Shown here piece after piece: positions 2,448 to 57,365 of a stretch of DNA of 57,785 nt (within the stretch, counting starts at the first letter, position 1; each line of letters opens with the position of its first letter). Both the position numbers and the translations under genes were made by a program. Under the pieces are notes generated by a model. The model was given only the letters and a program-made list of their open reading frames with translations, searched no databases and was not told the DNA's origin. Source of the stretch: Acidobacteriota bacterium (lineage in GTDB: Bacteria; Acidobacteriota; Terriglobia; Terriglobales; Acidobacteriaceae); the NCBI GenBank assembly GCA_021779935.1, contig JAJXZT010000015.1, forward strand, positions 1-57,785, read 5' to 3'.

Positions 2448-4292
2448 TCAGGGCGCTCCCCTAGTTGCCGCCTCCGCTTTCTTCTGCATTTCACTGAGAA
2501 ACCGATCGCGCAGATGCGAAACCCTGCCCTTTAGCACCGTACCTGTTTCTCTACGACCATCTGTTCCCGCATATGAAAGCCAATTGAAACTGGAATTCAC
2601 AAACATACTGTCATCCACAATCAGAACCTTTTCATGAGTAGTTAACTCAATCAGGTGAAGCCTGCCCGTTTGCTGCCGCTCCTGCAAGACTTTAATGGCA
2701 TCAGGATCGGATGTGTCCTGATGATGCCTGCTTTTCGGCATACCGTAGCCGACCCACACTTCGCAGCCCCTACCTAGAAGGTCGTCGAGATCGGGAAGCA
2801 GGGGTCGCAAGACTCTCATCTTGATCCACGGTGAAATGATAATCAGACTACTTTGGGCATCTTTGATAGCCCGCTTGAGCAAGGGAGGATGCTCCCGAGA
2901 CTCGATTAACTCAGTCGTTGGCATCTCCGATATTTTATCTAGCAGTCTTCGTCGTTCTGCGTCGCGATTTGCAATTGCCTCTTCGTAACGACGAATAATT
3001 TCATCATTAGCCGTCGTCCCCGTTGTCTCGAAAGTTGTGAGCCGGAGTTCAGTCGCCATCAATTGCAGCAAGGCGACAGCCCTATCCGCAGTGACCTTCC
3101 GATCTGAATCGCTGAGTCCCTGCGCACTGATACCTGAATCGACGATTTGAGTGATTTCGAGCAGTCGCTCATATTGATCAGGAGCAATCACTCTCGCGTT
3201 TTTCAATAATTCGATTGTTTGAGGAAGATCGCCATGGTGGGCGTCTATTGCCGCTCGCTTCGCAAGACCCTGTACTAAGTCCGTGAGCGCATCCAGTGCC
3301 GCGATTAGTGCTTCGCCTGACGGCGTGCTCCGGGCTAACTCCACATTTTGTGAAAAACGAGTCGAGCACGCGACTGCCTTTGCCGCTTCGTCATTCTGTG
3401 TCTTGACGCTTTGAAGTTCGTTGCGAGTCTCGCAAAGCTCGTTCTCGATGACGGACAAATGCTCGCGGATTTCAAAACCCATGAGAGGCATCCGAAGCGA
3501 TGTCCAGAAACTCGCTCCCGTGCCGAGCGAATCATCTGAGAAATACGTAGGGATAGAGCCCTTTCTCAACAATTGCTCGAACTGGAAGCTCAGATCATCA
3601 AGTGGTTGATCCCCTTGCTCCGGATTCAACAACAAAACTCGTCCGGCTTTCTTGTCGTCGGATTGGAACAACAGTAATCGCAGCGCTACCCAAACAAGGC
3701 CGGTCGCCTTGGGAGGTTCGTAGCTGTGTATTTCGACATCTGCATCAAAAGTCGAAAGTGCGCTCCGGCAGACATCACTTAGTTCTGATGTGTCGATGTT
3801 CGGTGTCTTAAGCGTCCCCAACAGACGACTTGGTGACATTTCCTGGGTCGGATTATCGATTAGTTTGAACCGGGTGTCGCCGTGACTAATCCAGAATCCG
3901 AACAGTCCGTCGCGGAGCAAGTCACGTTCTTCTGATGCCAAGATTGTGCGCTCCCGCGATGCGACAGCGGAGCGTGTGGCAGATGTGGGCGACCAGCCAA
4001 GTGGCGAGGCGGATACGTAAGGCGTCACCCCGGCTCCAAGATACTTACCCATCGTATCGATGTAGGTAGGAGAGCAGCCCAACAACCTTGATATATCTTC
4101 GGGAGACGTGAGGCCGGAGTCCACAAATCGAAGAAGCCCCTCTTCCAAAGCATCCAATTCTGCCGATTGACGCAGATGTACCGTCAAACCGAATCGGTGA
4201 ACTGGCCAATAGACCGTCTCCACAGCCGCAAGAGTGAGCCCATCGAAAAATGACCCGTACAGCTCGCGAACATTGTCTAACGTGTCAGCCAC
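2448..4292 (-). CDS. PLD-family nuclease-like protein, partner of the helicase
   Basis: The 614-residue product carries one phospholipase-D signature near the C-terminus, HEKVLIVDD (H553, K555, D560), followed by NSSFNW and a downstream RRETG, the usual order in PLD-type nucleases. A single HxKxxxxD suggests the active site forms by dimerisation. The N-terminal ~500 residues are not recognisable beyond a helical and coiled-coil stretch in the middle (roughly 270-420). The start is a GTG at 4292 that overlaps the end of the helicase gene by 8 bp and is served by AAGGGAGG 6-7 bases upstream, so translation is probably coupled. A PLD nuclease next to a COG1112-type SF1 helicase is the hallmark of Mokosh defence. 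Other PLD-helicase loci such as DISARM lack support here because their other components are absent. Confidence 0.75.
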   Translation of the reverse strand: MADTLDNVRELYGSFFDGLTLAAVETVYWPVHRFGLTVHLRQSAELDALEEGLLRFVDSGLTSPEDISRLLGCSPTYIDTMGKYLGAGVTPYVSASPLGWSPTSATRSAVASRERTILASEERDLLRDGLFGFWISHGDTRFKLIDNPTQEMSPSRLLGTLKTPNIDTSELSDVCRSALSTFDADVEIHSYEPPKATGLVWVALRLLLFQSDDKKAGRVLLLNPEQGDQPLDDLSFQFEQLLRKGSIPTYFSDDSLGTGASFWTSLRMPLMGFEIREHLSVIENELCETRNELQSVKTQNDEAAKAVACSTRFSQNVELARSTPSGEALIAALDALTDLVQGLAKRAAIDAHHGDLPQTIELLKNARVIAPDQYERLLEITQIVDSGISAQGLSDSDRKVTADRAVALLQLMATELRLTTFETTGTTANDEIIRRYEEAIANRDAERRRLLDKISEMPTTELIESREHPPLLKRAIKDAQSSLIIISPWIKMRVLRPLLPDLDDLLGRGCEVWVGYGMPKSRHHQDTSDPDAIKVLQERQQTGRLHLIELTTHEKVLIVDDSMFVNSSFNWLSYAGTDGRRETGTVLKGRVSHLRDRFLSEMQKKAEAATRGAP

Positions 4293-7200
4293 GATAGACC
4301 TCCCTTGATGCGTGGTTTGCGGCTAAGCACGCTTCAAACAAAAATTGAAGTTCGTTCAAAGGATTTCGAACAGGTACTCCGGCGGCACGCACGGTTGCCC
4401 TCCGCCCGAGGACATCAAGCCCACCTACAAGAACAAGCAGTTCACGCGCCCGAGACAGGGCTACATTCAGACGCTTACGATCATAGAAGAAACGTAACTT
4501 GTTCGGGTTCGTCTCTACAAAACTCACGATTACAGCGTCTTTTTCTCGGCCCTGAAATGCATCGACGGTGCCCACTTCGATTGAAGCTCTGTCCGTCGCT
4601 ATTTTGGTCTTGGCGAGGGCAGCCTCCAGTGCAAGTGCCTGCTGCCTGTACATCGCGATAACGCCAATCTCGTAAGGGTTGCTGTTCTTACGTTCTCGTA
4701 AGAACTCTCCGAATTCATCGGAGTGGATGAAAGGCACAAGCCCTGCAATAAACTCCCGAATTGCTTCAACTTCGGCCCAATTGCGGATTCCATAGCCCAC
4801 TTGCTCAGCAACGTTCCTCTCACCGTCGCACTTGATCCAATGGATTGGTGCCAAATCCTTAAATGGGTGCATTCTTTGGAGTGCATCCCCGGCTGTCTCG
4901 ATGGCTGACTCTTTCTCGCGGTACGAAATCTCGCGAACGACATCGCAGATGGTATCTACCATCCTGTACTGCTTTCGTAGTGATTCCTTACGAGATGTCG
5001 GCAAGCCCTTAAATAATCGCTCGAATAGGGTGAGGCGGTATTCGCCGTTGACGCTTTCGATGTCGGGGTCGTTCAGAAGCTCTGCTTCGATCTCCTGATT
5101 AAGAAGTGGGGGAAGTTGCTTGTGGTCTCCCACGAGGACGATGGTACGTCCTCTGACCATCGGCATGAGAAGATCGAGCGGCGTTGCCCTCCCCGCCTCA
5201 TCGATGATTACGCAGTCAAAGTCCTCCGCAAAGTCGCCGCTTCCGGCGATTCCGCTGCAAGTCGCCCCGACTACGTTTGCCTCAGCTATCGCGGCCTTCG
5301 ACATGTCAATCGCTTCTTCGGACAGTCGGGCGTGGTACGCCGATACGGCAAGAGCGATCTGAGGCCACTTCTCCTGACGACTCCGCAACTTGTCGGAAGT
5401 GTTGCGGTATGTCTCCGCAATATTCAGGAAGACATCTCCATTGGCAGTTTCTAGGCGCTCCGGAACCAAAACTCCTAACGAAGAACAAGAAGCGTCCAGT
5501 TCAGCGATGACAATCCCAAGTTCCGATTTCCTTTCGCCGATTTCATCGAGCATCACTTTTAGTTTCTTGAGTTCCTGCTCGGCAGTCCTATCCGTATCGG
5601 TCGCGAGCTGTAACTCATGCCACAGCCGCTCAATCGCGGACGCGGTTTGCATTTTGCTAGCGAACTGAAGTCCTCCGCACGGGATGAGAATATCCGCGAC
5701 TGCCAGATCACCTTCGATCTCGTTGACCTTAAGTTCTAATTCGAGAGCCCCGCCGACAACTCCAAAACCAGTGCTCGCTTCTTCACGGGCTACCCGGCAT
5801 CGAGCGGCTACATCATCGGCGTTACGCTTTTCCTGTTGGGCGGAAGGCAAAGAGGCTTTGGCGGCACTTGCAGCGAGATTGCGGATTTCCCGCTCTAGCG
5901 GCTCCAGATCATGCACTATGTCGGTGAGGTACGAGCCGAGTTTCTTCCAGAAGCCTACTGTTTGCCTCTTGTATGCAATGGTTTGATTGTGCAAGCGGAG
6001 GCGTTCGAGTTCCTTTTGTTTCTGAGCAGATTGTTCGATACGTTGTGTCAGTTCTTCAATCTGCTTGTCTGCTTTTCTACACCGCTGTTCAGCTTCGTTC
6101 TCAGCCTTAAGCGCATTTTTTGCATTCTGTAGTTGCAGACGCTTCGACGGAGCATTCGTTATTTGACCGTGACGGCTGAATACCGATTCTGGCACAATTG
6201 ACGCCTTCCCAAGTGCGGCTATCGCCTGAAGGTATCCTTCCAAATCAGCAGCGTTCAAGCTCGCCTGACGCAAAGCTGAATCAAGCGCCGTTTTGGCCGA
6301 ACCCAATTGTGCTTTGGCATTCTCGCGTGCCAGTTTCAGTCCCGCTAGTCCATTCAAGGTTTGCTGGTACCTTTTGCACACGTTCACATAGGTCGCGACC
6401 CGAGAACAGAGCGCGTCAACATCTCCAGAAGATCGCACCGAAGTAGATGCGAGTTCCGCCTGAACGGCCTCAAACGTCCGTTTGCTCTTATCCAGAAGCA
6501 TTCGACGAAATCGATCTGACGCTCGTTCCTTCAGCAACTCTTGATTAAATCGGACTGATTCTGGACGACCAATACGAATCCGGAATATCTGATCGGAATC
6601 CAACACACGTTCGAGCGCATTATCGACAGCCAAGTTCGACTGCGAGGAGATCAACACGCGCCTTCCCATGCTTGCAAACTGTGATGCAATCTCAGCAATC
6701 ACTGAAGTCTTTCCAGTTCCCGGTGGGCCTAGGATCGCAGTTATCGTTCCATCGGACAGTGCCTTCGAGATCGAACGCACCTGTTCCTCGTTGTACGGCT
6801 TATCAAGTAACTGCGAGAACTCAACTCTTTCCCCTTCGGCATTTTCTCCCGAAGGCAAGATCGCATTTAAGGCAGGCAGCGCGGTTTGGCCTAACCTCAA
6901 TCTGTGGAGGGCATCTTCGCGTCTTTTTCGTTCGGATTCGATGCTGATCCAATCAATCTTGATCAATCCACTTTTAGGGATTTGATCGAGTTGGTAACGC
7001 TGCAACGGCGCGGCGGCGATCCACTGCTCTGCAATAGGCTTGCGGATTTCGAAACGCAGAAACGCAGCGCGACCACGATCATCGGTGCGATTAGTCGGAA
7101 CCAGTAACCGTCCTGAAGAGTTCGTGAGAATCTCGGACTGACTATCACCAACATTGAAATCGACACAGCCTTCCAAACCCCATCTACGCTGTGAATAGCC

Positions 7201-7752
7201 CCAACCGGGATGTTCTCGCTTCGACTTTGCTTGTTCTTTTTCCTTTCCGATGTATTCGCTCCAAAACTCCCAAAACGATTCTTTATCAGCGTGTCCGGCA
7301 GAGAACCCTCTTACACTTTCGAGCAGAGCGTCGCGCTCAGCCTCGCTGTAGCTATGGTCTGCCGTCCAAGTGAAGCGGCACGGCAATGCGGAACGCTTGT
7401 CGGCACGCCAACGATCAGGGGAACTTGCCTCCACAGACAGCACAATGACCGAATTCTCATCACGCGCGTCGGGGAAGAACCTCACCCGCAGCCGGGGCGT
7501 AGAAACCACAAAATTCTCACGCTCCCCGTTCGAGTTGTGCAGGATCAAAGATCGATGCTTATCTTCTGTTAAGAAATCAGCTAACTGGGCCAGAGGGTTC
7601 ACCCGCCATCCGAAGTCCGCTGATAAACGTAACCGCAGATCACCATTTGGCAGTGATTTGAGGCGAATGCTGCGTCTGAGTTCAGCCTCGATTTCGGCAC
7701 TTACTCCGGCAGTTGCCGCCGATGTTTGTCGTTCGTACGCTCTGAAAGTCAT
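4285..7752 (-). CDS. superfamily 1 (Upf1-like, COG1112-type) helicase
   Basis: This 1155-residue protein contains a full SF1 helicase set. It has a Q-type motif (YNEEQ, ~320), Walker A GPPGTGKTS (~342-350), Walker B IIDEAG (~849-854), motif III VGDHKQLPP, motif IV-region KQYRM, motif V VGTVDAFQGREKD (~1060) and motif VI NVALSRAR (~1096). About 450 residues between Walker A and B form a long coiled-coil insertion. The N-terminal 320 residues show no kinase signature, unlike Mokosh type I helicases. The gene precedes and overlaps the PLD gene. Its promoter should lie in the divergent gap 7753-8017, which carries two perfect inverted repeats. The likely role is nucleic-acid sensing or unwinding in antiphage defence; RNA versus DNA preference cannot be told from sequence. 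Confidence 0.85.
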   Translation of the reverse strand: MTFRAYERQTSAATAGVSAEIEAELRRSIRLKSLPNGDLRLRLSADFGWRVNPLAQLADFLTEDKHRSLILHNSNGERENFVVSTPRLRVRFFPDARDENSVIVLSVEASSPDRWRADKRSALPCRFTWTADHSYSEAERDALLESVRGFSAGHADKESFWEFWSEYIGKEKEQAKSKREHPGWGYSQRRWGLEGCVDFNVGDSQSEILTNSSGRLLVPTNRTDDRGRAAFLRFEIRKPIAEQWIAAAPLQRYQLDQIPKSGLIKIDWISIESERKRREDALHRLRLGQTALPALNAILPSGENAEGERVEFSQLLDKPYNEEQVRSISKALSDGTITAILGPPGTGKTSVIAEIASQFASMGRRVLISSQSNLAVDNALERVLDSDQIFRIRIGRPESVRFNQELLKERASDRFRRMLLDKSKRTFEAVQAELASTSVRSSGDVDALCSRVATYVNVCKRYQQTLNGLAGLKLARENAKAQLGSAKTALDSALRQASLNAADLEGYLQAIAALGKASIVPESVFSRHGQITNAPSKRLQLQNAKNALKAENEAEQRCRKADKQIEELTQRIEQSAQKQKELERLRLHNQTIAYKRQTVGFWKKLGSYLTDIVHDLEPLEREIRNLAASAAKASLPSAQQEKRNADDVAARCRVAREEASTGFGVVGGALELELKVNEIEGDLAVADILIPCGGLQFASKMQTASAIERLWHELQLATDTDRTAEQELKKLKVMLDEIGERKSELGIVIAELDASCSSLGVLVPERLETANGDVFLNIAETYRNTSDKLRSRQEKWPQIALAVSAYHARLSEEAIDMSKAAIAEANVVGATCSGIAGSGDFAEDFDCVIIDEAGRATPLDLLMPMVRGRTIVLVGDHKQLPPLLNQEIEAELLNDPDIESVNGEYRLTLFERLFKGLPTSRKESLRKQYRMVDTICDVVREISYREKESAIETAGDALQRMHPFKDLAPIHWIKCDGERNVAEQVGYGIRNWAEVEAIREFIAGLVPFIHSDEFGEFLRERKNSNPYEIGVIAMYRQQALALEAALAKTKIATDRASIEVGTVDAFQGREKDAVIVSFVETNPNKLRFFYDRKRLNVALSRARELLVLVGGLDVLGRRATVRAAGVPVRNPLNELQFLFEACLAANHASREVYRG

Positions 7753-7997: not shown

Positions 7998-8017
7998 GAA
8001 CCGCTGGAGGAGTGCCA

Positions 8018-8932
8018 ATGGCAACGACGGTAAAGCGGATAGCGATTCTCGTGTCCGTGTTTGTCATTGTTGTTTTCGCGATTTTCGTATTCAACCAGAC
8101 AGTGCAGATCGTACAGTCTGCACGGGCCTTGAACCCGATCTTCGGCCAAGCGGTGATGTGGGGGCTGATCTTCACGTATGTGTTATTGCTGATCTCTCCA
8201 GCAATCTTGTGGTTCCGCTTGCCTAAGCGTGCGCTCCCGCCAGTTGTTGCCCAAGGGGCGGAATACAACCGATTCATAGCAGATTTTTCCAAACGTCTGT
8301 CCCGAAATCCTCTTCTTCGAGGCATGACCATCAAGTCGCAGGATGATTTCAAGTCGGCACTCCAGATTCTCGACAAGCAAGCGGATGCAGCGGTCGCATC
8401 TGCCGCCTCAACCGTCTTCCTTAGTACGGCTGTGTTACAAAGCGGACGACTCGACGTGCTCGTGGTGCTTGCCGCTCAGACGCGGATTATTTGGAACGTC
8501 GCTCACGTCTATTATCAGCGCCCTTCACTGCGCGATTTCGTTCAGCTTTATGCGAATGTAGCCTCCACGGCATTCATTGCTGCGGGGATTGAAGATGTAG
8601 ACGTTGATGTTCTAGTGAGCACGATTTTCGGTTCGACCGTAGCGGCAATTCCGGGCATGCATCTACTCACCAGTTCAGTGCTAACTGGTTCTGCAAACGC
8701 TTTCTTAACGCTGCGAGTTGGGATGATCACGAAAGAATACTGCCGCTGCACCGTACGATTAGAGAAATCCGGGTTATGCCGGGCCGCCACGATGCAGTCC
8801 GCAAAGTTGCTCGGCAATATCGTCCGAGACGGAACCGTAAAGCTGTCAAAGGCGGCGGCAGATGCCACCTCAACAAAAATAAAGGGACTGTTCGGGCGAG
8901 GTGAGAAAATACGCGAAACGACTGCACCTTAG
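8018..8932 (+). CDS. membrane protein with DUF697/YcjF-like core
   Basis: The start is ATG 8018, seven bases after GGAGG, rather than the in-frame GTG six bases earlier. The 304-residue protein begins with two transmembrane helices (about 8-28 and 45-66). A cytoplasmic helical segment follows, then a hydrophobic core beginning STAVLQSGRLDVLVVL with a later LVSTIFGSTVAAIPG segment. This organisation resembles the DUF697/YcjF group of small membrane proteins, which often accompany GTPases, though no GTPase is adjacent. It is transcribed divergently from the helicase and followed after 44 bp by the glycosylase-like gene. A function in the element is not established. Family assignment is from pattern recall, not a search. 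Confidence 0.55.
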   Translation: MATTVKRIAILVSVFVIVVFAIFVFNQTVQIVQSARALNPIFGQAVMWGLIFTYVLLLISPAILWFRLPKRALPPVVAQGAEYNRFIADFSKRLSRNPLLRGMTIKSQDDFKSALQILDKQADAAVASAASTVFLSTAVLQSGRLDVLVVLAAQTRIIWNVAHVYYQRPSLRDFVQLYANVASTAFIAAGIEDVDVDVLVSTIFGSTVAAIPGMHLLTSSVLTGSANAFLTLRVGMITKEYCRCTVRLEKSGLCRAATMQSAKLLGNIVRDGTVKLSKAAADATSTKIKGLFGRGEKIRETTAP

Positions 8933-8976: not shown

Positions 8977-9795
8977 GTGAAAGATTACAAGGCTCTATTC
9001 GACAGTGTGGAGCGCACACTTCTTGAAGTCGGCTCTCGCAGCATTCCTGCGGAACAAATACGCGCAGAGTTGGATTCGTATAAGCACTTCGAAGGAATGT
9101 GTCTCACGGACGAGCAGTACTACCGAAATCTAGTCCACATCATTTTCTATTCTGGATTCAGAGCGGAAACCGTCAGCCAACGGCTTGAGGCGATTGACCG
9201 CAGTTTCCCTGACTATGCCACGGTCGCCACTTACTCAGAGCCCGATATTCAGCGGATCATTAGCGACCCGACGATGATCCGGAACGAGCGCAAAATCCGG
9301 GCGTGTGTGGCGAATGCAAAGCAGTTCGAGAAGATCGTTACAGATAATGGCTCATTTTATGATTTCTTGAAGGCGTTCCCGCCGCCATCAACGGACGCCG
9401 AGATTCTGGCGCTGCGCAATCGCTTCCAGCGGCTTTTCGCCTTTTTGGGTGGAATCACGGCCTTCCACTTTATGACGGACATTGGAATTGCAGTGCTCAA
9501 GCCAGATCGCGTAATCCAGCGAATCTTCAAGAGGCTTGGACTTGTGGACGGCAGCCTTACGGACGATGTTCTCTATCTAGCTTGCATTCGCGAAGGCCAG
9601 AAATTTGCCCATGCCACGGGTTACCCAATCCGCTACATCGACATCGTCTTTGTCGCCTACGGACAGGTTCAGTCGAGTGAGATCGGGATCATGCAAGGCA
9701 TCTGCTTGGAAGAAAGCCCTAATTGCTCAATTTGTGGAACAAAGGGCTTCTGCGAATACTTCGACTCCAAATCGAAAGTCGCAACCGCTCGGTGA
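8977..9795 (+). CDS. HhH-GPD DNA glycosylase, Tag-like core with EndoIII-type Fe-S loop
   Basis: The 272-residue protein starts at GTG 8977 with GGGAGAGG just upstream. The N-terminal two thirds resemble DNA-3-methyladenine glycosylase I (Tag): FEGMCLTDEQYYRNLV, then a block ending MIRNERKIRACVANAK. A segment at about 160-185 (LKPDRVIQRIFKRLG) resembles the helix after the helix-hairpin-helix of the HhH-GPD fold, with an Asp in the catalytic position. The C-terminus has cysteines spaced C-x6-C-x2-C-x5-C (from CLEESPNC to GFC), exactly the [4Fe-4S] spacing of endonuclease III and MutY. It should excise a damaged or modified base from DNA. In a defence-rich element the substrate could be modified phage DNA, but that is inference. 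Confidence 0.7.
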   Translation: MKDYKALFDSVERTLLEVGSRSIPAEQIRAELDSYKHFEGMCLTDEQYYRNLVHIIFYSGFRAETVSQRLEAIDRSFPDYATVATYSEPDIQRIISDPTMIRNERKIRACVANAKQFEKIVTDNGSFYDFLKAFPPPSTDAEILALRNRFQRLFAFLGGITAFHFMTDIGIAVLKPDRVIQRIFKRLGLVDGSLTDDVLYLACIREGQKFAHATGYPIRYIDIVFVAYGQVQSSEIGIMQGICLEESPNCSICGTKGFCEYFDSKSKVATAR

Positions 9796-9899: not shown

Positions 9900-10391
9900 T
9901 CAAGGGATAAGGTCAGCCCGAACGAGGTTGTATATGACCAGTGCGGCAAGCGCCGAGAAGCTGAGTACCTGTTGAGAAGCCATTCCCCAGCGATATTCGT
10001 GCTTTAGGTGCTTTCTTTGAGGTACGGACAGGTCTGGAACATCGACCATTGTGCGAAGCCGATCAAGATATAAGTTCTGTTTGGCTCGAAAGTATTCTTG
10101 TCGTTCTTTAACTCGGAGCGATATGTACCAGAACACAAGATACAGAACCAAACTCGCAGCGATCCCCGCCATGGCAACAGCCTGTGGATGACGTGCGTGA
10201 TCGTGCAAATGCGTAGTAGCGATGGCAACCGCAGCATAGCCTGCATACACCTGAAATGTGAGCCGCCATTCAAGCTGTTGCATCGATTCATAGCGTTTTT
10301 CGTATTCCGTTGCACGATACTGAAGAAACGAGAACGTTTGTTTAGACTTTAATTGCTGCTCCATCATTCTCTCCGGGTTTACCGTTGTCAC
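9900..10391 (-). CDS. small membrane protein with cytoplasmic helices, effector-like layout
   Basis: This 163-residue protein has an N-terminal helical cytoplasmic segment of ~45 residues and hydrophobic segments at about 49-61 and 71-91. A charged linker with VKERQEYFRAKQNLYLDRL follows, then a final hydrophobic helix near 141-158. The pattern of helices around a short membrane hairpin recalls SLATT-type or DUF4231-type effector membrane proteins of bacterial defence loci, but there is no decisive motif. The gene overlaps the end of the upstream methyltransferase-like gene by 4 bp (ATG inside its terminal codons), so the two are translationally coupled and probably work together. Confidence 0.6.
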   Translation of the reverse strand: MTTVNPERMMEQQLKSKQTFSFLQYRATEYEKRYESMQQLEWRLTFQVYAGYAAVAIATTHLHDHARHPQAVAMAGIAASLVLYLVFWYISLRVKERQEYFRAKQNLYLDRLRTMVDVPDLSVPQRKHLKHEYRWGMASQQVLSFSALAALVIYNLVRADLIP

Positions 10392-11719
10392 ATAATCAGC
10401 CGTGGTCGGTCGGGTGAGCCTACCGATTCGATTGTGGAATCCGGTTCCTGCCCTGTCACCTTTAGGAAATGCTCTGCCAGTACCTCGATCCGCTTGCGAA
10501 TGTCGGGTTTTGCGTTGATGTCCCGACTTTCGAGTACCAGACGGGACATTTCTGTTGCAATCTCGATTGGCGCATTAGGTATTGACCATTCGGATTCCTG
10601 ACGCAATCCTGCACGAGCTTCAATGAGGGCTTGTCTGGCTTGTGAGGCATCGGTCTTCCCTTGAAGCATGTACTGGATCGTCCGCAAGCTGCGCCCGAGC
10701 TTGTGACGCTTAGTTTCGACCCATGCAGTCCACGTCAAATCAGACGGAGCCCCTTTTCGAAGATCGGTTCTTCTTCCGGGGGCACTCAGGCGTTGGTGCA
10801 TTTCGAGGAGGTATGGCAACAAGGCCGAGAAATCCTTGGCGATGAGATCGAGTCCACCCTCGATCCTCTCATCGAGCGCCTTAAATGAGAGAGAGGCAGC
10901 GTCCGAAATCGCCCGAATTTGCCCTTTGACGGTGGGTGTCAGCATGCGCTGGGACTTCTCGATTTCAGGCGTGAAATTCGCCCATACGCACTCGTTCCTT
11001 TCCTCACTGCCTGTTTTCATTCGTACGCAGAGCAACTCCATGTCTTTTGCCCAAACAGGCGTACCGAGTCGATTCAGTAAAGGATGCGGGTACCCGCAGT
11101 AAATCCATTTGAATTTTGCTTTCAGGAGCAGATCGACAAGCTGCTCGTAGTTTACGGTGGCATCCGAATACGTTTTCACCCTTGCATGGGGGTAGGGTGC
11201 GTCGATGACCACCGTGTCTCGACTTGAGAGCTTTTCAAGTCCAAGTAGCGTCCAGTCTACCGCCGTAATCTTAGGGTTCGTGCGATGAAGGATTTGGTGG
11301 CATTCTCGCAGGGTGTTTTCAAAACCTTTTGAGCTAACGCCCCCGCCATCGTTGCCGTCTCCCGACCCGCCCTTAACACCGCCGTCAAACAGACCGCCCG
11401 AGTAGGACAAGTGCGGCGCAAGCAAAATTGCGGTCGGATCACTCTTCTGGAATGCCTCGCGTTGCTTCTCGAATTCCTGCCTGCTGCGCGGAGGTACCTT
11501 GATCTTGTGCCCGTGGCTCTTGATCGCTTCGAAGAACGGGGCGGTTGCGATGTCATTCAAATGCCAACGTTCATACTTGAGTCCTTGCTCGACGGCGGCC
11601 CAAAACAGATTTCCGCGTCCGGCAAAAGGCTCGATGTATGTGCGACCTTCTCGTGGGAGAAGAGAGATGATTTGCTTAGCAAGGCGGGCCTTGCCGCCCG
11701 GATACGGGATTTTGGGCAT
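10388..11719 (-). CDS. D12-class-like N6-adenine DNA methyltransferase with DAPY motif
   Basis: The 443-residue protein opens with PYPGGKARLAKQI (motif X of Dam-type enzymes) and has the SAM-binding motif I in EPFAGRGNLFW. Motif IV appears as VVIDAPYP where most family members have DPPY. The methyltransferase core ends near residue 270. The remaining ~170 residues are a helical C-terminal extension with no recognised domain and are not usual for Dam. It likely methylates adenine in DNA, as a solitary modification enzyme or as the sensor half of a two-gene module with the overlapping membrane protein. No restriction endonuclease is adjacent. Whether DAPY still catalyses cannot be decided from sequence. 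Confidence 0.75.
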   Translation of the reverse strand: MPKIPYPGGKARLAKQIISLLPREGRTYIEPFAGRGNLFWAAVEQGLKYERWHLNDIATAPFFEAIKSHGHKIKVPPRSRQEFEKQREAFQKSDPTAILLAPHLSYSGGLFDGGVKGGSGDGNDGGGVSSKGFENTLRECHQILHRTNPKITAVDWTLLGLEKLSSRDTVVIDAPYPHARVKTYSDATVNYEQLVDLLLKAKFKWIYCGYPHPLLNRLGTPVWAKDMELLCVRMKTGSEERNECVWANFTPEIEKSQRMLTPTVKGQIRAISDAASLSFKALDERIEGGLDLIAKDFSALLPYLLEMHQRLSAPGRRTDLRKGAPSDLTWTAWVETKRHKLGRSLRTIQYMLQGKTDASQARQALIEARAGLRQESEWSIPNAPIEIATEMSRLVLESRDINAKPDIRKRIEVLAEHFLKVTGQEPDSTIESVGSPDRPRLIM

Positions 11720-12675: not shown

Positions 12676-12750
12676 CGTCACTTTGAGAGAAGTTTTTCAA
12701 TAAATGCTTATAGAAGAACTTTACCTAAAGTGACGGCACTAAGCGTCACT
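12676..12750. repeat. CGTCACTTT repeats in inverted and direct orientation behind the primase gene
   Basis: CGTCACTTT occurs at 12676-12684 and in inverted orientation at 12727-12735. CGTCACT recurs at 12744-12750, overlapping the primase stop codon. The last two form a 7-bp hairpin with an 8-base loop. Several GTGTC-type near copies lie just to the left. Clustered short repeats near a primase-helicase gene could be replication iterons, a regulator site or a transcription end. Confidence 0.4.
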
Positions 12751-14326
12751 GGATTGCTTTCACCACCTTCTCTTGCTCGTCGGTCGAAAGCTGTTCAAAC
12801 TCAGAATCAGACCGAACCGCGACACCTTTCCAGTGACGACCACGAGGCCCTGAGCGTCCTTCTTCGAACTGAAGTTGAAACCGTTCGGTGAACTCAGCCA
12901 AAGGCATAACGAATTCGCCCATGCGCTCAGCCCAAGCTCGGTATGAATCGTACATCGGCTGCTTACCAGCCCACTTGTCCGTCCCGACGACGCACCGATC
13001 TTCGATGAAGTGCCGCAATACGTCCTGCTCTGCTCGGTAGTCTTTCGTTGCCTGTCGGACGCATGATGGAACGTTCAGTCCTTGTCGTTGCCATTCCAGA
13101 CATCCCTCGATAATCCAATTTAGGACACCTGAGGCTTCCGCCTTCAGCTTCTCGCCGAGCTTAAGGTCTCGCTCTTTTTCTGAGAAGTACCGATTGAATG
13201 GGATCAGGTGTGTGCGATCCCAAATGGCATCGTCGGTACCAACGACCTTTGGTTTTGCATTTGTCACCAGCCAGATTTTGTAGCTTGGAACGTAGCTGAA
13301 CTGCTCTTGGTACTTGAACTCGCCTGTGACGGCCTCATCGCCAGTCATGCGCTTGATCTTTGCTTCCGCCAGTCGCTTGCAGTGTTCCGATTCGCTAGCA
13401 ACGATCAACCGTGCGCCCCGGAATCCGGCGATGTCGTTCAGTTTCTCATCGCCCTTACGAGCAACGAACGTATCGAACGAAGCGACCCTGCCGTAGTCGC
13501 CAAGCACGTGCCGGAACGTCTCAATGAACTTGCTCTTGCCATTCCTGCCACGAGGCCCCCAACACACAAAGAAGCATTCTTCGTTGATCCGACCCGTCAG
13601 CGTATAGCCAACCGCACGTTGCAGGAAAGGAACACAGCATTCCTCGTGACCGGGCATGATTTCGTTGAGGAACTGATTCCAGCGTGAACACTTCGCATTA
13701 GGGTCATATTCGACCGGGCTGATCTTTGTCAGAAAGTCGGCACGTTGATGCTTTCGTGGTGCTCCTGTCCGTAGGTCGATGGTGTAGTTTGCGGCGTTAA
13801 AGAGCCACGGATCACCATCGAAGTCCGAGTACTTGAACGTGCGGCAGAGCGATTTTGCGGATTGGATCATCGCCACGAGTCGAGCCTGACTTTCGCTTGC
13901 CATTGCCCATTTCAGTTGCCCTTTGCGTACGTCCTCGTCTTTTTGCCCCGCTGCACTGAGGAAGAACCGTTCGATGGTGCGCTTCGCCATGCGCAACATC
14001 TCAACCTCGCCCTTGTCTTCTGTCCACACTCTGCCATTCCAGACGAACCACGCCTTGGCTTCCGGAACGTAGAGCACGTCGTCGTACCACATTTTGGCGA
14101 GGCGGATGGCGTTCCCGGCATCCGTGTTGCGAGGCTCTTCGATGATCGCAGGGTCGTATGTGTCGGCAAACGGCCCACCTTCCGATACTTCGTCACGACG
14201 CAAGTAGTCCAGCGTTGCCAGACCAAACTCTCTGGCGCAGATTCGGCAAGAGCTTCCGATTACAACCGGATATTTGTTGCAATCTTTGCAGAGGGGTTTT
14301 TCGTTTTGTTTTGGTTTATTTGGCAT
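12746..14326 (-). CDS. P4/D5-type phage or plasmid primase-helicase
   Basis: The 526-residue protein starts with a Cys4 zinc-binding element (CKDCNKYP and CRICAREFG). A D5-N type domain with the block WFVWNGRVWTEDKGE follows, then an SF3-type ATPase: Walker A as GPRGRNGKSKF (~270), the segment SFDTFVARKGDEKLNDIAG, Walker B-like GARLIVASESE, and the sensor motif IWLVTNAKPKVVGTDDAIWDR. Such proteins initiate replication of P4-like satellites, plasmids and integrative elements. The Toprim or AEP primase catalytic domain of the longest family members is not visible, so this may be helicase-only. Its start codon lies directly behind a 7-bp hairpin that includes the Shine-Dalgarno sequence. Confidence 0.85.
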   Translation of the reverse strand: MPNKPKQNEKPLCKDCNKYPVVIGSSCRICAREFGLATLDYLRRDEVSEGGPFADTYDPAIIEEPRNTDAGNAIRLAKMWYDDVLYVPEAKAWFVWNGRVWTEDKGEVEMLRMAKRTIERFFLSAAGQKDEDVRKGQLKWAMASESQARLVAMIQSAKSLCRTFKYSDFDGDPWLFNAANYTIDLRTGAPRKHQRADFLTKISPVEYDPNAKCSRWNQFLNEIMPGHEECCVPFLQRAVGYTLTGRINEECFFVCWGPRGRNGKSKFIETFRHVLGDYGRVASFDTFVARKGDEKLNDIAGFRGARLIVASESEHCKRLAEAKIKRMTGDEAVTGEFKYQEQFSYVPSYKIWLVTNAKPKVVGTDDAIWDRTHLIPFNRYFSEKERDLKLGEKLKAEASGVLNWIIEGCLEWQRQGLNVPSCVRQATKDYRAEQDVLRHFIEDRCVVGTDKWAGKQPMYDSYRAWAERMGEFVMPLAEFTERFQLQFEEGRSGPRGRHWKGVAVRSDSEFEQLSTDEQEKVVKAIQ

Positions 14327-54840: not shown

Positions 54841-56406
54841 TCAGCGCAGGAGAAATTCGTCACCGAGTGAGCCTTGAGATCCCTTAAGCGGGCGATTCGG
54901 CAGTAAGTTGGCAATTTCCGGAAGTGGCACATTCGCCAATTCTCTTGGCTCCAACTTGTGGAGTCCCCCTCCATAGACTCGACCTTCTCCCGTCATGTGT
55001 TGCATCGGAATTGATCGCAGAATCTGGAATACCTGCTGACGGGTATCTGCGCCTTCAAGTAGGTGACGTACTGCGGGCTTGGGATACAGCAGCAGATAGA
55101 CGTTTGCCGCTGTAGCTTGTGAGTGATTCAGAATAAATCGGAATGCAGGTTTCCCTTCCGTGCCCTCCCTCCCCATGTAGGTACAGAGTATTGGCGACGG
55201 TGGTCTGTGCTCCTGCGAGTACCAAATAGTTCTGGATCTGCACAAATAGCCATTCGCCGTTGTCCTGGCTCCAGACTTCAAATAATCTGCGAGTGCCGGA
55301 TCGGCATTCTCTAGTTCCCGCTCGTCGAGCGGGCAATCGATAAGAAACAACTTGGGTGAAACGATCGGATCTCCGTGTTCGTCGGCTTCGATTTCATCCC
55401 GCTTGAGATAACGCGGACTAGGCAATATTGGTTTAAGAAATTTCCTTGAAATCCCGAGGTCGGCCACCTGTTGCTCTGTGAGGATGAAAAACTTATTGTC
55501 GCCAGTAGCCAAACCTCGCTTTATCGAGAACAAGTCGCCGAGGCGAACTGAGTCTTCCGTCGCGCCTCGGACCTCTCTATGGAGCAGGCGCGTCCATTTT
55601 GGCTCTCTCCAAAGTTCGTCAATTGAGAACATCGCGGATCTGCGTGGTCGAGCTAAGGTGCCACCGAAGGACAGGTTTACTTGTGTTTCCTTAGTTGGCT
55701 TTCTATTTCTGAACCACACAACAGCAGACGATACCAGCGCGTCGTCAAATTGAACTTCTTGAGGATCAAAGCGATGAATTCGGAGAAGAGTTACATTTCG
55801 GAGAAGGTAGTCTTTGATCGCCTCTCCGTAGTTAACGCCCATAAACTCACTTGGCACAAGCCACGCGGAAACGGCGTTTGGTCGTAGCCATCGATGTGCC
55901 AAGACCATAAAGTAACAATACAGGCCCGCAAGTCCGCTAAGTGTTATGCCGATACTTTTACAATCGCGTTGCAGTTTGGCTTTCACTGCCGCAGAGAGGT
56001 GGTGATGCCGGACATAAGGAGGATTGCATATGAGCAGGTTGACCATACCTTTGTCAGTCTGAACATTGGTGAAATCTGCGATATGCAATTGCAGGTTCGT
56101 CCCTTTCCATAATTCAACGGAAGGCGCCCCGTAGTGATTGTCGATCTCAAAGCCTATAGATGAAGCCACCCGGTCGGGAAACTCGTTAAGGAGTGCGGAA
56201 TAGAACGCTCCAGTACCGAACGCCGGGTCGAGAAAATCTAGCGGCTCATTTGGTCCAAGATACCCCAATGACTCAATGGTAATTTCGCGGGCAAGAAGAA
56301 ATGGGGTCGCGAATTGCCCCATGCGATTGCGTTCCATTTGGGTGCGCTGCTCGTCGCACCTACGCTGTAATTCAGTTCTGGCTCGTTCAAGACTCGCGAT
56401 ATCCAT
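54841..56406 (-). CDS. N6-adenine DNA methyltransferase of a XamI-like R-M system
   Basis: The 521-residue protein starts at ATG 56406, overlapping the endonuclease stop (TGATG); upstream in-frame codons lie inside the endonuclease gene. Motif X (RNRMGQFATPFLLA), motif I (LDPAFGTGAFYS) and motif IV (LLICNPPYVRHHH) identify a gamma-class m6A methyltransferase of the Eco57I/TaqI type. The C-terminal half should form the target-recognition domain. By analogy with XamI/SalI the site may be GTCGAC. It protects the host against the linked endonuclease. Confidence 0.9.
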   Translation of the reverse strand: MDIASLERARTELQRRCDEQRTQMERNRMGQFATPFLLAREITIESLGYLGPNEPLDFLDPAFGTGAFYSALLNEFPDRVASSIGFEIDNHYGAPSVELWKGTNLQLHIADFTNVQTDKGMVNLLICNPPYVRHHHLSAAVKAKLQRDCKSIGITLSGLAGLYCYFMVLAHRWLRPNAVSAWLVPSEFMGVNYGEAIKDYLLRNVTLLRIHRFDPQEVQFDDALVSSAVVWFRNRKPTKETQVNLSFGGTLARPRRSAMFSIDELWREPKWTRLLHREVRGATEDSVRLGDLFSIKRGLATGDNKFFILTEQQVADLGISRKFLKPILPSPRYLKRDEIEADEHGDPIVSPKLFLIDCPLDERELENADPALADYLKSGARTTANGYLCRSRTIWYSQEHRPPSPILCTYMGREGTEGKPAFRFILNHSQATAANVYLLLYPKPAVRHLLEGADTRQQVFQILRSIPMQHMTGEGRVYGGGLHKLEPRELANVPLPEIANLLPNRPLKGSQGSLGDEFLLR

Positions 56407-57365
56407 CACAGTCCAAGCTTTGCGAGATCGTCGATTCGATGTTCCCACACCCAGTCTATCCCTTCTGCCGCCTCATAGCCGAGGTATCCGCTATCGAAAT
56501 AGCCACAAAGGAAAAGATTAAGCTTAGCTTCTTTACCATATGTCTTACGTATCTGGCTGATTTTTGTTGCTTCTTCTTTCCGCCTCTTGTTCACATTCGT
56601 AAAGTCGCCCGCAGATTTTGCCTCAATAAGCACTGGCAGGGAGTTCGGAACGGCAGATAGAGGTAGAACTACGGCGTCCATGGGGATGTTGATTTGTTTT
56701 CCTCCGTCCATAGTCACGGGCACGTTAACCCTAAACGCAAAGGTTCCGGGAGTCATTTCGCGGAACTTTACGGTTTTTCCCAACGGGGCTTGGGTGTATC
56801 CGTGTGACTTTAGCCACTTGCCAATTGCAGCAAGTTGTCGTTGTTCTTGTGCATTTCGAATAATCGGATCGGCTACTGCTCCGCAAAGACGGTCCGCGAC
56901 TACAGTGGCTGCGCGCTCGGTTTCCTTATTGCCGGGGTTTTTGTGGGTTCCGAACCAAACGAAGATGTCAGGATCGACCATTCGGCTAATCGTAATGACT
57001 ATTCGCTTCAGGTCCTCCAGAAGTGCTTCCTCGCCCATCTTCGCCGGGAGGCATCGGCCAATTTCCATGCACTTAACCAGGTTTGACGAGACTTTTGCGA
57101 GGCCAACCAAACGATCGCGCGCAATTGGTGGGCACGTTGCCATTCGCAGCATCGGAAGAATTTCCGGATTGGATTTCAGCGTGTTCGGAGTCAGTAACTT
57201 AAGATTTCTCGTTAGGCGAAGTGCTGTTTCTACCTCCTTCGTCGCACTGCTTCGGCTGTCGCGGAATGCCTTTGGGGCAAATTTCACGAACCAGTCGTTG
57301 TACATGTCAACCGACTCTGCGATATCAACTTTCCAGTGGTCTGGCTTGTCCCGGTTTACGGCCAT
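56406..57365 (-). CDS. type II restriction endonuclease, XamI family
   Basis: ATG 57365 starts a 319-residue protein (MAVNRDKPDHWKVDI) that matches the N-terminal pattern of XamI-type enzymes, with VDMYNDWFVKFAPKAFRDSR and the conserved block EILPMLRMATCPPIARDR. A PD-(D/E)xK-like nuclease site is visible as IPMDAVVLPL and, further on, PVLIEAKSAG. The longer frame to 57542 has no ribosome binding site and no family resemblance. The gene overlaps the methyltransferase start. Confidence 0.85.
   Translation of the reverse strand: MAVNRDKPDHWKVDIAESVDMYNDWFVKFAPKAFRDSRSSATKEVETALRLTRNLKLLTPNTLKSNPEILPMLRMATCPPIARDRLVGLAKVSSNLVKCMEIGRCLPAKMGEEALLEDLKRIVITISRMVDPDIFVWFGTHKNPGNKETERAATVVADRLCGAVADPIIRNAQEQRQLAAIGKWLKSHGYTQAPLGKTVKFREMTPGTFAFRVNVPVTMDGGKQINIPMDAVVLPLSAVPNSLPVLIEAKSAGDFTNVNKRRKEEATKISQIRKTYGKEAKLNLFLCGYFDSGYLGYEAAEGIDWVWEHRIDDLAKLGL

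Follow-up and report, generated by a model that had tools for sequence, protein, structure and literature searches.

Whether a helicase and a phospholipase D (PLD)-type nuclease encoded side by side could serve as a Mokosh-like defence module without the kinase of that system is the question raised by a gene pair of an Acidobacteriota bacterium (Terriglobales; Acidobacteriaceae), located on the minus strand of a 57,785-nucleotide stretch of DNA (assembly GCA_021779935.1, contig JAJXZT010000015.1, positions 1 to 57,785), which we refer to as the window. According to excerpts of PMC11672841, Mokosh type I consists of separate genes for a COG1112-type superfamily 1 (SF1) helicase and a PLD protein, with a Ser/Thr kinase domain, and type II of one fused chain; Mokosh degrades viral transcripts (excerpts of PMC11291487). 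With a probability of roughly 0.68, we interpret the window pair as a two-gene anti-phage (or anti-mobile-element) pair that is related to Mokosh type I and is without its Ser/Thr kinase, because both the MkoA and the MkoB profile match, the PLD domain is closer to most Mokosh PLD domains, a concatenated tree groups the pair with kinase-type pairs (100/100), the gene order is conserved in 12/12 pairs, and an integrase and a phage-like primase lie nearby.

The helicase and its PLD partner

4285..7752, minus strand: mkoA-like gene, UPF1/DNA2-type SF1 helicase of 1155 amino acids (aa), no kinase domain (open reading frame (ORF), PADLOC, Pfam)
6730..7524, minus strand: MkoA aa 77-341, homologue of the post-kinase linker of kinase-type MkoA (linker model, collinear alignment A2)
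6706..6729, minus strand: Walker A motif GPPGTGKT, aa 342-349, the same in all 11 rows of alignment A2
5185..5211, minus strand: motif II VIIDEAGRA, aa 848-856 (motif read)
2448..4292, minus strand: mkoB-like gene, 614 aa, GTG start, with an N-terminal adaptor, a middle region and a C-terminal single-HKD PLD domain (ORF, PADLOC, Pfam)
4285..4292, minus strand: mkoA/mkoB overlap, 8 bp (sequence read)
3870..4274, minus strand: adaptor domain at the N-terminus of MkoB, aa 7-141 (homologous to kinase-type MkoB N-termini by hhalign, probability 95.1)
2508..2879, minus strand: PLD nuclease domain, aa 472-595 (Pfam PLDc_2, motif survey)
2610-2636, minus strand: HEKVLIVDD, aa 553-561 (motif survey)

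A sequence-only reading of this DNA had described an SF1 helicase gene that overlaps by 8 bp the gene of a separate protein with one HxKxxxxD PLD site, and the ORF list and the sequence itself agree with it in coordinates, strand and overlap as well as in the two distinct chains. The helicase carries the full motif set intact, namely Walker A, motif II (DEAG from aa 851), motif III (GDHKQLPP, 875-882), motif V (VDAFQGRE from 1063) and motif VI (NVALSRAR from 1096), and the single HxKxxxxD site of the partner lies at aa 553-560. A Shine-Dalgarno-like stretch, GGGAGGT, is found a few bases 5' of the mkoB GTG and within the last mkoA codons, which, together with the gene overlap, would be expected for coupled translation.

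The profile search that the same reading had proposed places the two proteins as MkoA and MkoB. The helicase, which matches Pfam AAA_11 (150 bits) and AAA_12 (124 bits) and among solved structures is most similar to DNA2, SMUBP-2 and UPF1/NAM7, reaches 343 bits with PADLOC MkoA model PDLC03920; its best stretch covers profile positions 551-1082 of 1112, which is the helicase part, and so falls short of the full-length match, whereas 4/4 other MkoA proteins scanned cover the model nearly end to end, kinase included, with 619-777 bits. The partner scores 124.6 bits with MkoB model PDLC03922, with a second match stretch over its N-terminal part, and 29.1 bits with Pfam PLDc_2 (cut-off 27), in one stretch only. 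Among the scanned profiles with a cut-off, none places the pair in another characterised system: the DISARM DrmC equivalog gave 19.3 bits against a cut-off of 133, and the helicase model of the PLuB system (NCBIfam NF040671) 144 bits against 999, and both candidates were ruled out. A housekeeping IGHMBP2/DNA2-like repair helicase that happens to stand beside an unrelated PLD nuclease would find some support in the NCBIfam IGHMBP2 family model, which gives 217 bits but stays under its cut-off of 349; we rejected this extremely unlikely explanation on the MkoB match of the neighbour, including that over its N-terminal part, and on the gene overlap, and the occurrence of one copy only, on a segment of low GC content that also has an integrase, speaks against it as well.

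The pair resembles Mokosh type I in the SF1 COG1112/UPF1-like helicase and its PLD neighbour in the same order, in the adaptor-plus-PLD layout and in the PADLOC matches of both proteins. It differs in being without the Ser/Thr kinase, in the spacing from Walker A to motif II (506 residues vs 148-288 in 18 kinase-type MkoA) and in the length of MkoB (614 aa vs 434-597 in the 18 kinase-type pairs). With type II it shares a helicase plus a PLD domain, and the PADLOC MkoC profile matches both window proteins (135 and 57 bits), yet the window has two chains from overlapping ORFs. Since the defining feature of type I, the kinase, was looked for and found missing, we do not count the pair as a type I member. 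Named Mokosh subtypes exist, for example Type I-A (excerpts of PMC12735699), so that a kinase-less subtype may already be catalogued.

The comparators are not a random sample, having been chosen for their similarity to the window, their coverage and their annotation. A tblastn search with the window MkoB returned 17 plasmid records, and the 10 examined were all adjacent MkoA-MkoB pairs with a Pfam Pkinase match in 10/10 MkoA. The 18 kinase-type pairs comprise these 10, two from the family of the window (L039, L040), two from the phylum (L076, L077) and four more from plasmids (L054, L055, L056, L064). The helicase gene directly precedes the PLD gene in 12/12 pairs, the 10 plasmid ones and the two from the same family. 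When the window PLD domain was compared with the 13 aligning kinase-type PLD domains (L054-L056 gave no match, L076 and L077 were not included), 12 scored 60-88 bits and one 51, as against 42 and 51 bits for two kinase-less cyanobacterial PLD domains.

Relatives are sparse. The MkoB alignment matches 9/399 genomes of the class, over its length only three of them, the own one included, and an alignment of kinase-less helicases matches 5/396 phylum genomes at E<=1e-30: the own one, two with kinase-type Mokosh (G544, G596) and two with other helicases (G545, G052). Scans with MkoB found no relative in viral contigs and no match in phages; a helicase scan gave two distant helicases among the matches listed for viral contigs, and one distant Dadabacteria helicase came from genome contigs. 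Two comparator loci deserve mention beside MkoB. In a same-family genome (L041:7385-8617; G202), a PLD protein like the MkoB C-terminus stands without an adjacent MkoA, and this locus was excluded from the pair counts. The MkoB of Mycobacterium gallinarum (L036:7086-8855) is extended at its C-terminus and bears the annotation of an S1 RNA-binding domain protein, a hint at an RNA substrate.

Search for the missing kinase

The sequence-only reading had seen no kinase signature in the helicase N-terminus, and this held at every level examined. No kinase was found among the 25 listed of 33 Pfam families at E<=1, and the window helicase was not matched at E<=10 by a kinase hidden Markov model (HMM) built from 10 relatives; this model was trained on 10 of the 18 kinase-type pairs, and the eight held-out ones reach 198-308 bits. 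Applied to 1543 open segments of the window in all six frames, the same HMM gave at best 4.3 bits (E 1.6), with no kinase remnant. The helicase frame is closed by an in-frame stop four codons before the ATG and a divergent ORF begins 259 bp from the gene, thus leaving no room for a kinase domain. A kinase concealed by a wrong start, a frameshift or the opposite strand was ruled out by the closed frame and the six-frame scan, and a kinase acting in trans from nearby by the Pkinase places of the genome (five over the cut-off, one below), which are all off this contig; a distant kinase might still act in trans. By sequence, then, the N-terminus holds no kinase. What it does hold is much of the post-kinase linker of the relatives: the linker HMM gives 68 bits (HMM 60-341 of 344 vs aa 77-358), and the window helicase begins near the point where that linker starts in them.

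The kinase domain cut from L037 matches PDLC03920 at 4-279 and PDLC03921 at 318-467, and therefore both PADLOC MkoA models include a kinase that the window is without. Among the 20 other helicase-MkoB pairs compared, 18 have the Ser/Thr kinase and two, L057 and L058, do not.

Three Rhizobiales plasmid loci (L054:2992-8688, L055:2980-8625, L056:3010-8703) combine a kinase-type MkoA, an MkoB homologue without HxKxxxxD and a PP2C phosphatase gene (Pfam 48 bits for L054; annotation for all three). Possibly they represent a kinase/phosphatase-regulated Mokosh variant with a degenerate effector.

An insertion in the first RecA domain

5353..6480, minus strand: insertion of aa 425-800 within the first RecA domain, long and partly coiled-coil-like (spacing 506, heptad z 5.5)

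In three outgroup helicases, Walker A and motif II are 117-153 residues apart, so that the excess in the window amounts to about 350-390 residues. Heptad periodicity against shuffles has a z of 5.5 for aa 425-800, compared with -1.3 for the N-terminus and -1.0 for the C-terminus. The sequence-only reading had placed a 450-residue coiled coil here; the long helical insertion is real, as the spacing and the periodicity testify, while the figure of 450 was overstated and a single coil was not borne out, and what the sequence supports is some 375 residues that are partly coiled-coil-like. Long spacings recur among kinase-less helicases, 9/11 of which have 392-787 residues between Walker A and motif II.

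Kinase-less relatives and exchange of effectors

The sequence-only reading had proposed a third arrangement of Mokosh. The separate, kinase-less pair is indeed real, but it is not the only one, and its general scheme was described in 2024 for the CoCoNuT-related family (PMC11090510). Two other kinase-less helicase-PLD pairs, one from an Aulosira laxa plasmid (L057) and one from a plasmid of Cyanobacterium sp. HL-69 (L058), likewise join a helicase with a long insertion to an adaptor-PLD gene, which matches the MkoB HMM across both of these parts (87 and 109 bits). Unlike the window helicase, theirs are longer (1478 and 1626 aa, spacing 787 and 722) and group with that of a DarT pair (L060).

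Similar helicases are followed by a PIN gene in L059 and L063 (Pfam) and in L065, L066 and L067 (annotation), and by a DarT gene in L060 and L069 (Pfam). In these five PIN loci, we observed a four-gene plasmid operon of a kinase-less MkoA-like helicase, a PIN-domain protein, a protein of about 370 aa and an AAA ATPase, one copy of which sits on an Acinetobacter pNDM1 plasmid. On a plasmid of Nostoc sp. C052 (L060:3568-8887), a kinase-less MkoA-like helicase is paired with an MkoB-type adaptor fused to DarT, and the two genes lie between pglX and pglZ of a BREX locus. The L060 helicase is 46.6% identical to that of L057 over 81% of its length, and the first part of the DarT protein is 33% identical to the N-terminus of the L057 PLD protein, a direct example of one adaptor with exchanged effectors. 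With hhalign, the N-terminal profile of kinase-type MkoB reached probabilities of 99.9 for the Rhizobiales group, 97.2 for L057/L058, 95.1 for the window, 94.9 for the DarT protein of L060, 87.7 for the PIN group and 41 for L068, with 0.3 and 0.2 for negative controls. L068 itself (L068:3244-7504, Aliarcobacter cryaerophilus plasmid) is a different kinase-less helicase pair with an effector of unknown kind next to Qat genes; a DUF2779 gene and a dGTPase are neighbours that it has in common with the kinase-type MkoAB of an Aliarcobacter faecis plasmid (L034:3776-8435).

For UPF1-like helicases in which a large helical insertion follows Walker A, the typical partner is a downstream gene for an elongated winged helix-turn-helix (wHTH)-effector protein (PMC11090510). 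The window pair resembles the CnuH/CnuE pair of CoCoNuT, judging by sequence alone, in the UPF1-like helicase, the large insertion after Walker A and the downstream adaptor-effector gene, and it differs in having no McrB/McrC-type gene among the genes scanned and one HKD motif instead of two PLD domains. As for the elongated wHTH, the N-terminal domain of the window protein is homologous to MkoB-type adaptors, with a fold model of only pLDDT (predicted local distance difference test) 39. CoCoNuT Type III-C has PLD effectors (PMC11090510); it was ruled out on the missing McrBC-type neighbours (the contig reaches only 2.4 kb beyond mkoB on the left) and the missing second PLD domain. There was no McrBC-type Pfam match among the window genes scanned, the 31 places of AAA_5 (McrB-type ATPase) in the genome are all off this contig, and McrBC PF10117 and DUF2357 were not found genome-wide, which carries little weight as only 1 and 0 of 14 control genomes were positive.

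These likenesses raise the possibility that the pair is a stand-alone member of the wider family of UPF1-like helicases with an adaptor-effector partner (CnuH/CnuE type) rather than of Mokosh, and a minimal core behind Mokosh (plus kinase), the PIN operons, the DarT pairs and the CoCoNuT modules (plus McrBC). The typical gene order of that family, the adaptor homology across effectors and the long insertions of kinase-less helicases are in keeping with it, as is a single clade of all 11 kinase-less helicases, which was not rejected (approximately unbiased (AU) test, p 0.108). We regard it as unlikely nonetheless, as the PLD domain of the window is closer to most Mokosh PLDs, the helicase tree joins the window to the kinase-type rows, and the likeness to CnuH/CnuE is one of description and not of direct sequence comparison.

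Placement among kinase-type pairs

The helicase tree has 32 rows, with L053, L078 and L079 as outgroup and L061 and L062 dropped for want of the motif II pattern. In it, the window forms a long branch beside the 18 kinase-type rows (94/89, not starred), and a clade of their own (96/90) unites the 10 remaining kinase-less rows. When 18 pairs were concatenated, the tree split the window and 15 kinase-type pairs from L057/L058 (100/100) and, rooted on the latter, left the window outside the 15 (81/74). As judged from these trees, the window is nearer to Mokosh type I than to the other kinase-less PLD pairs, and a kinase not yet gained is slightly favoured over a kinase lost.

Nesting of the window within kinase-type pairs was not rejected, either with L034/L035/L064 (p 0.104) or with L035/L064 (p 0.081). 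This, the long branch and the rarity of the pair in its clade are what one would expect if a Mokosh type I, after loss of its kinase, had become decaying or defective cargo of a mobile element. Against such decay, which we consider very unlikely, stand two open frames with all catalytic motifs intact, the absence of a kinase remnant in six frames, the clean start behind its in-frame stop and the ribosome-binding-site-like stretch before mkoB.

Setting of the pair in the genome

20028..21356, minus strand: tyrosine integrase (Pfam Phage_integrase 66.9 bits; step in GC content near 22 kb), probable right end of the carrying mobile element
12749-14326: phage-type D5 primase, between the pair and the integrase

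The pair, present as a single copy, lies 12-18 kb left of the integrase, and a D12 methyltransferase (Pfam) also stands between them. GC content is 0.511-0.543 in the eleven 2-kb intervals of 1-22000 and 0.535-0.596 in the seventeen from 22001-56000. The low GC left of about 22 kb, the integrase and the phage-type primase fit a location of the pair on an acquired integrative element whose left end is beyond the contig; no direct repeats of at least 20 bp that might serve as an att site were found in 1-24000.

Divergent from mkoA on the plus strand are genes for a DUF697 protein and a DNA glycosylase (8980-9792 and 8015-8929; glycosylase with Pfam Adenine_glyco 55.6 bits and PADLOC model OGG 52 bits), possibly further genes of the island. 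On the minus strand, 9903-11719 holds two genes that share 4 bp: the first encodes a 443-aa D12-type adenine methyltransferase, long extended at its C-terminus, and at its end begins the gene of a 163-aa protein that, to the eye, is probably a membrane protein. An Eco57I-like type II methyltransferase (Pfam; PADLOC 450 bits) is encoded at 54844-56448 (minus strand), beyond the element and in chromosome-like surroundings. For a large outer-membrane protein right of the element, the plasmid matches with the best coverage are in Granulicella and Acidisarcina, which points to a probable acidobacterial host.

Discussion

We infer that the two proteins form a complex, that the PLD protein is an active nuclease with a nucleic acid substrate and that the pair serves in defence. 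The helicase might act as sensor and motor, an ATP-hydrolysing enzyme that would load onto foreign RNA or single-stranded nucleic acid. Models suggest that in a CoCoNuT-related pair the adaptor might dock on the helicase insertion (PMC11090510), and by analogy the long helical stalk of the window helicase could dock the N-terminal adaptor of the PLD protein, which with one HKD half-site would probably be a dimer. Helicase action might then free or position the nuclease, so that phage transcripts or DNA would be cut, under the control of helicase binding and ATPase activity alone, without a kinase. The kinase of Mokosh type I, the PP2C of the Rhizobiales loci and the TerY-P kinase-phosphatase present in many CoCoNuTs (PMC11090510) together suggest a phosphorylation switch that the window pair does without, and the basic system may be a simpler one that senses and cuts, with the kinase as an optional extra.

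Several points weigh against a kinase-less relative of Mokosh type I as the interpretation of this pair, first among them that the kinase which defines the type is missing. The placement of the window is unsure because of its long branch (2.2-2.6) and an identity of at most 32-37% to any row; no close relative was found, the first 320 residues of the helicase matching 1/396 phylum genomes, its own. AlphaFold2 without an alignment gave a pLDDT of 39.2 and 36.1 for the two proteins. The wider pattern is not clear-cut either: the link between the absence of a kinase and a long insertion is imperfect, with 181 residues in L068 and 217 in L069, and the insertion of L059 has no excess of heptad periodicity (z 0.9). 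A NERD domain is listed for Mokosh type I in excerpts of PMC10952713, and therefore type I is itself not uniform.

Beyond the relation to Mokosh type I, we speculate that the window pair might represent a pre-kinase state of Mokosh, a minimal helicase with an adaptor-nuclease to which the kinase was fused later, whereas in sister lineages the effector was swapped (PLD, PIN, DarT) or a phosphatase or another partner joined. On this view, a single modular immune family would comprise Mokosh, CnuH/CnuE and the operons with PIN and DarT, and the kinase would be a control switch that can be removed; we put this scenario forward as possible but doubtful. A link between Mokosh and the wider helicase-adaptor-effector family was not found in the open-licence literature: Mokosh does not occur in the CoCoNuT paper PMC11090510 or its preprint, and in excerpts of a P. 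aeruginosa survey (PMC12735699) the two systems are only separate entries.

Should the pair prove active, it would demonstrate that the kinase of Mokosh is dispensable and would offer a natural kinase-minus version from which to learn what the kinase does. It may also tie Mokosh to a wider helicase-adaptor-effector family in which effectors have been exchanged.

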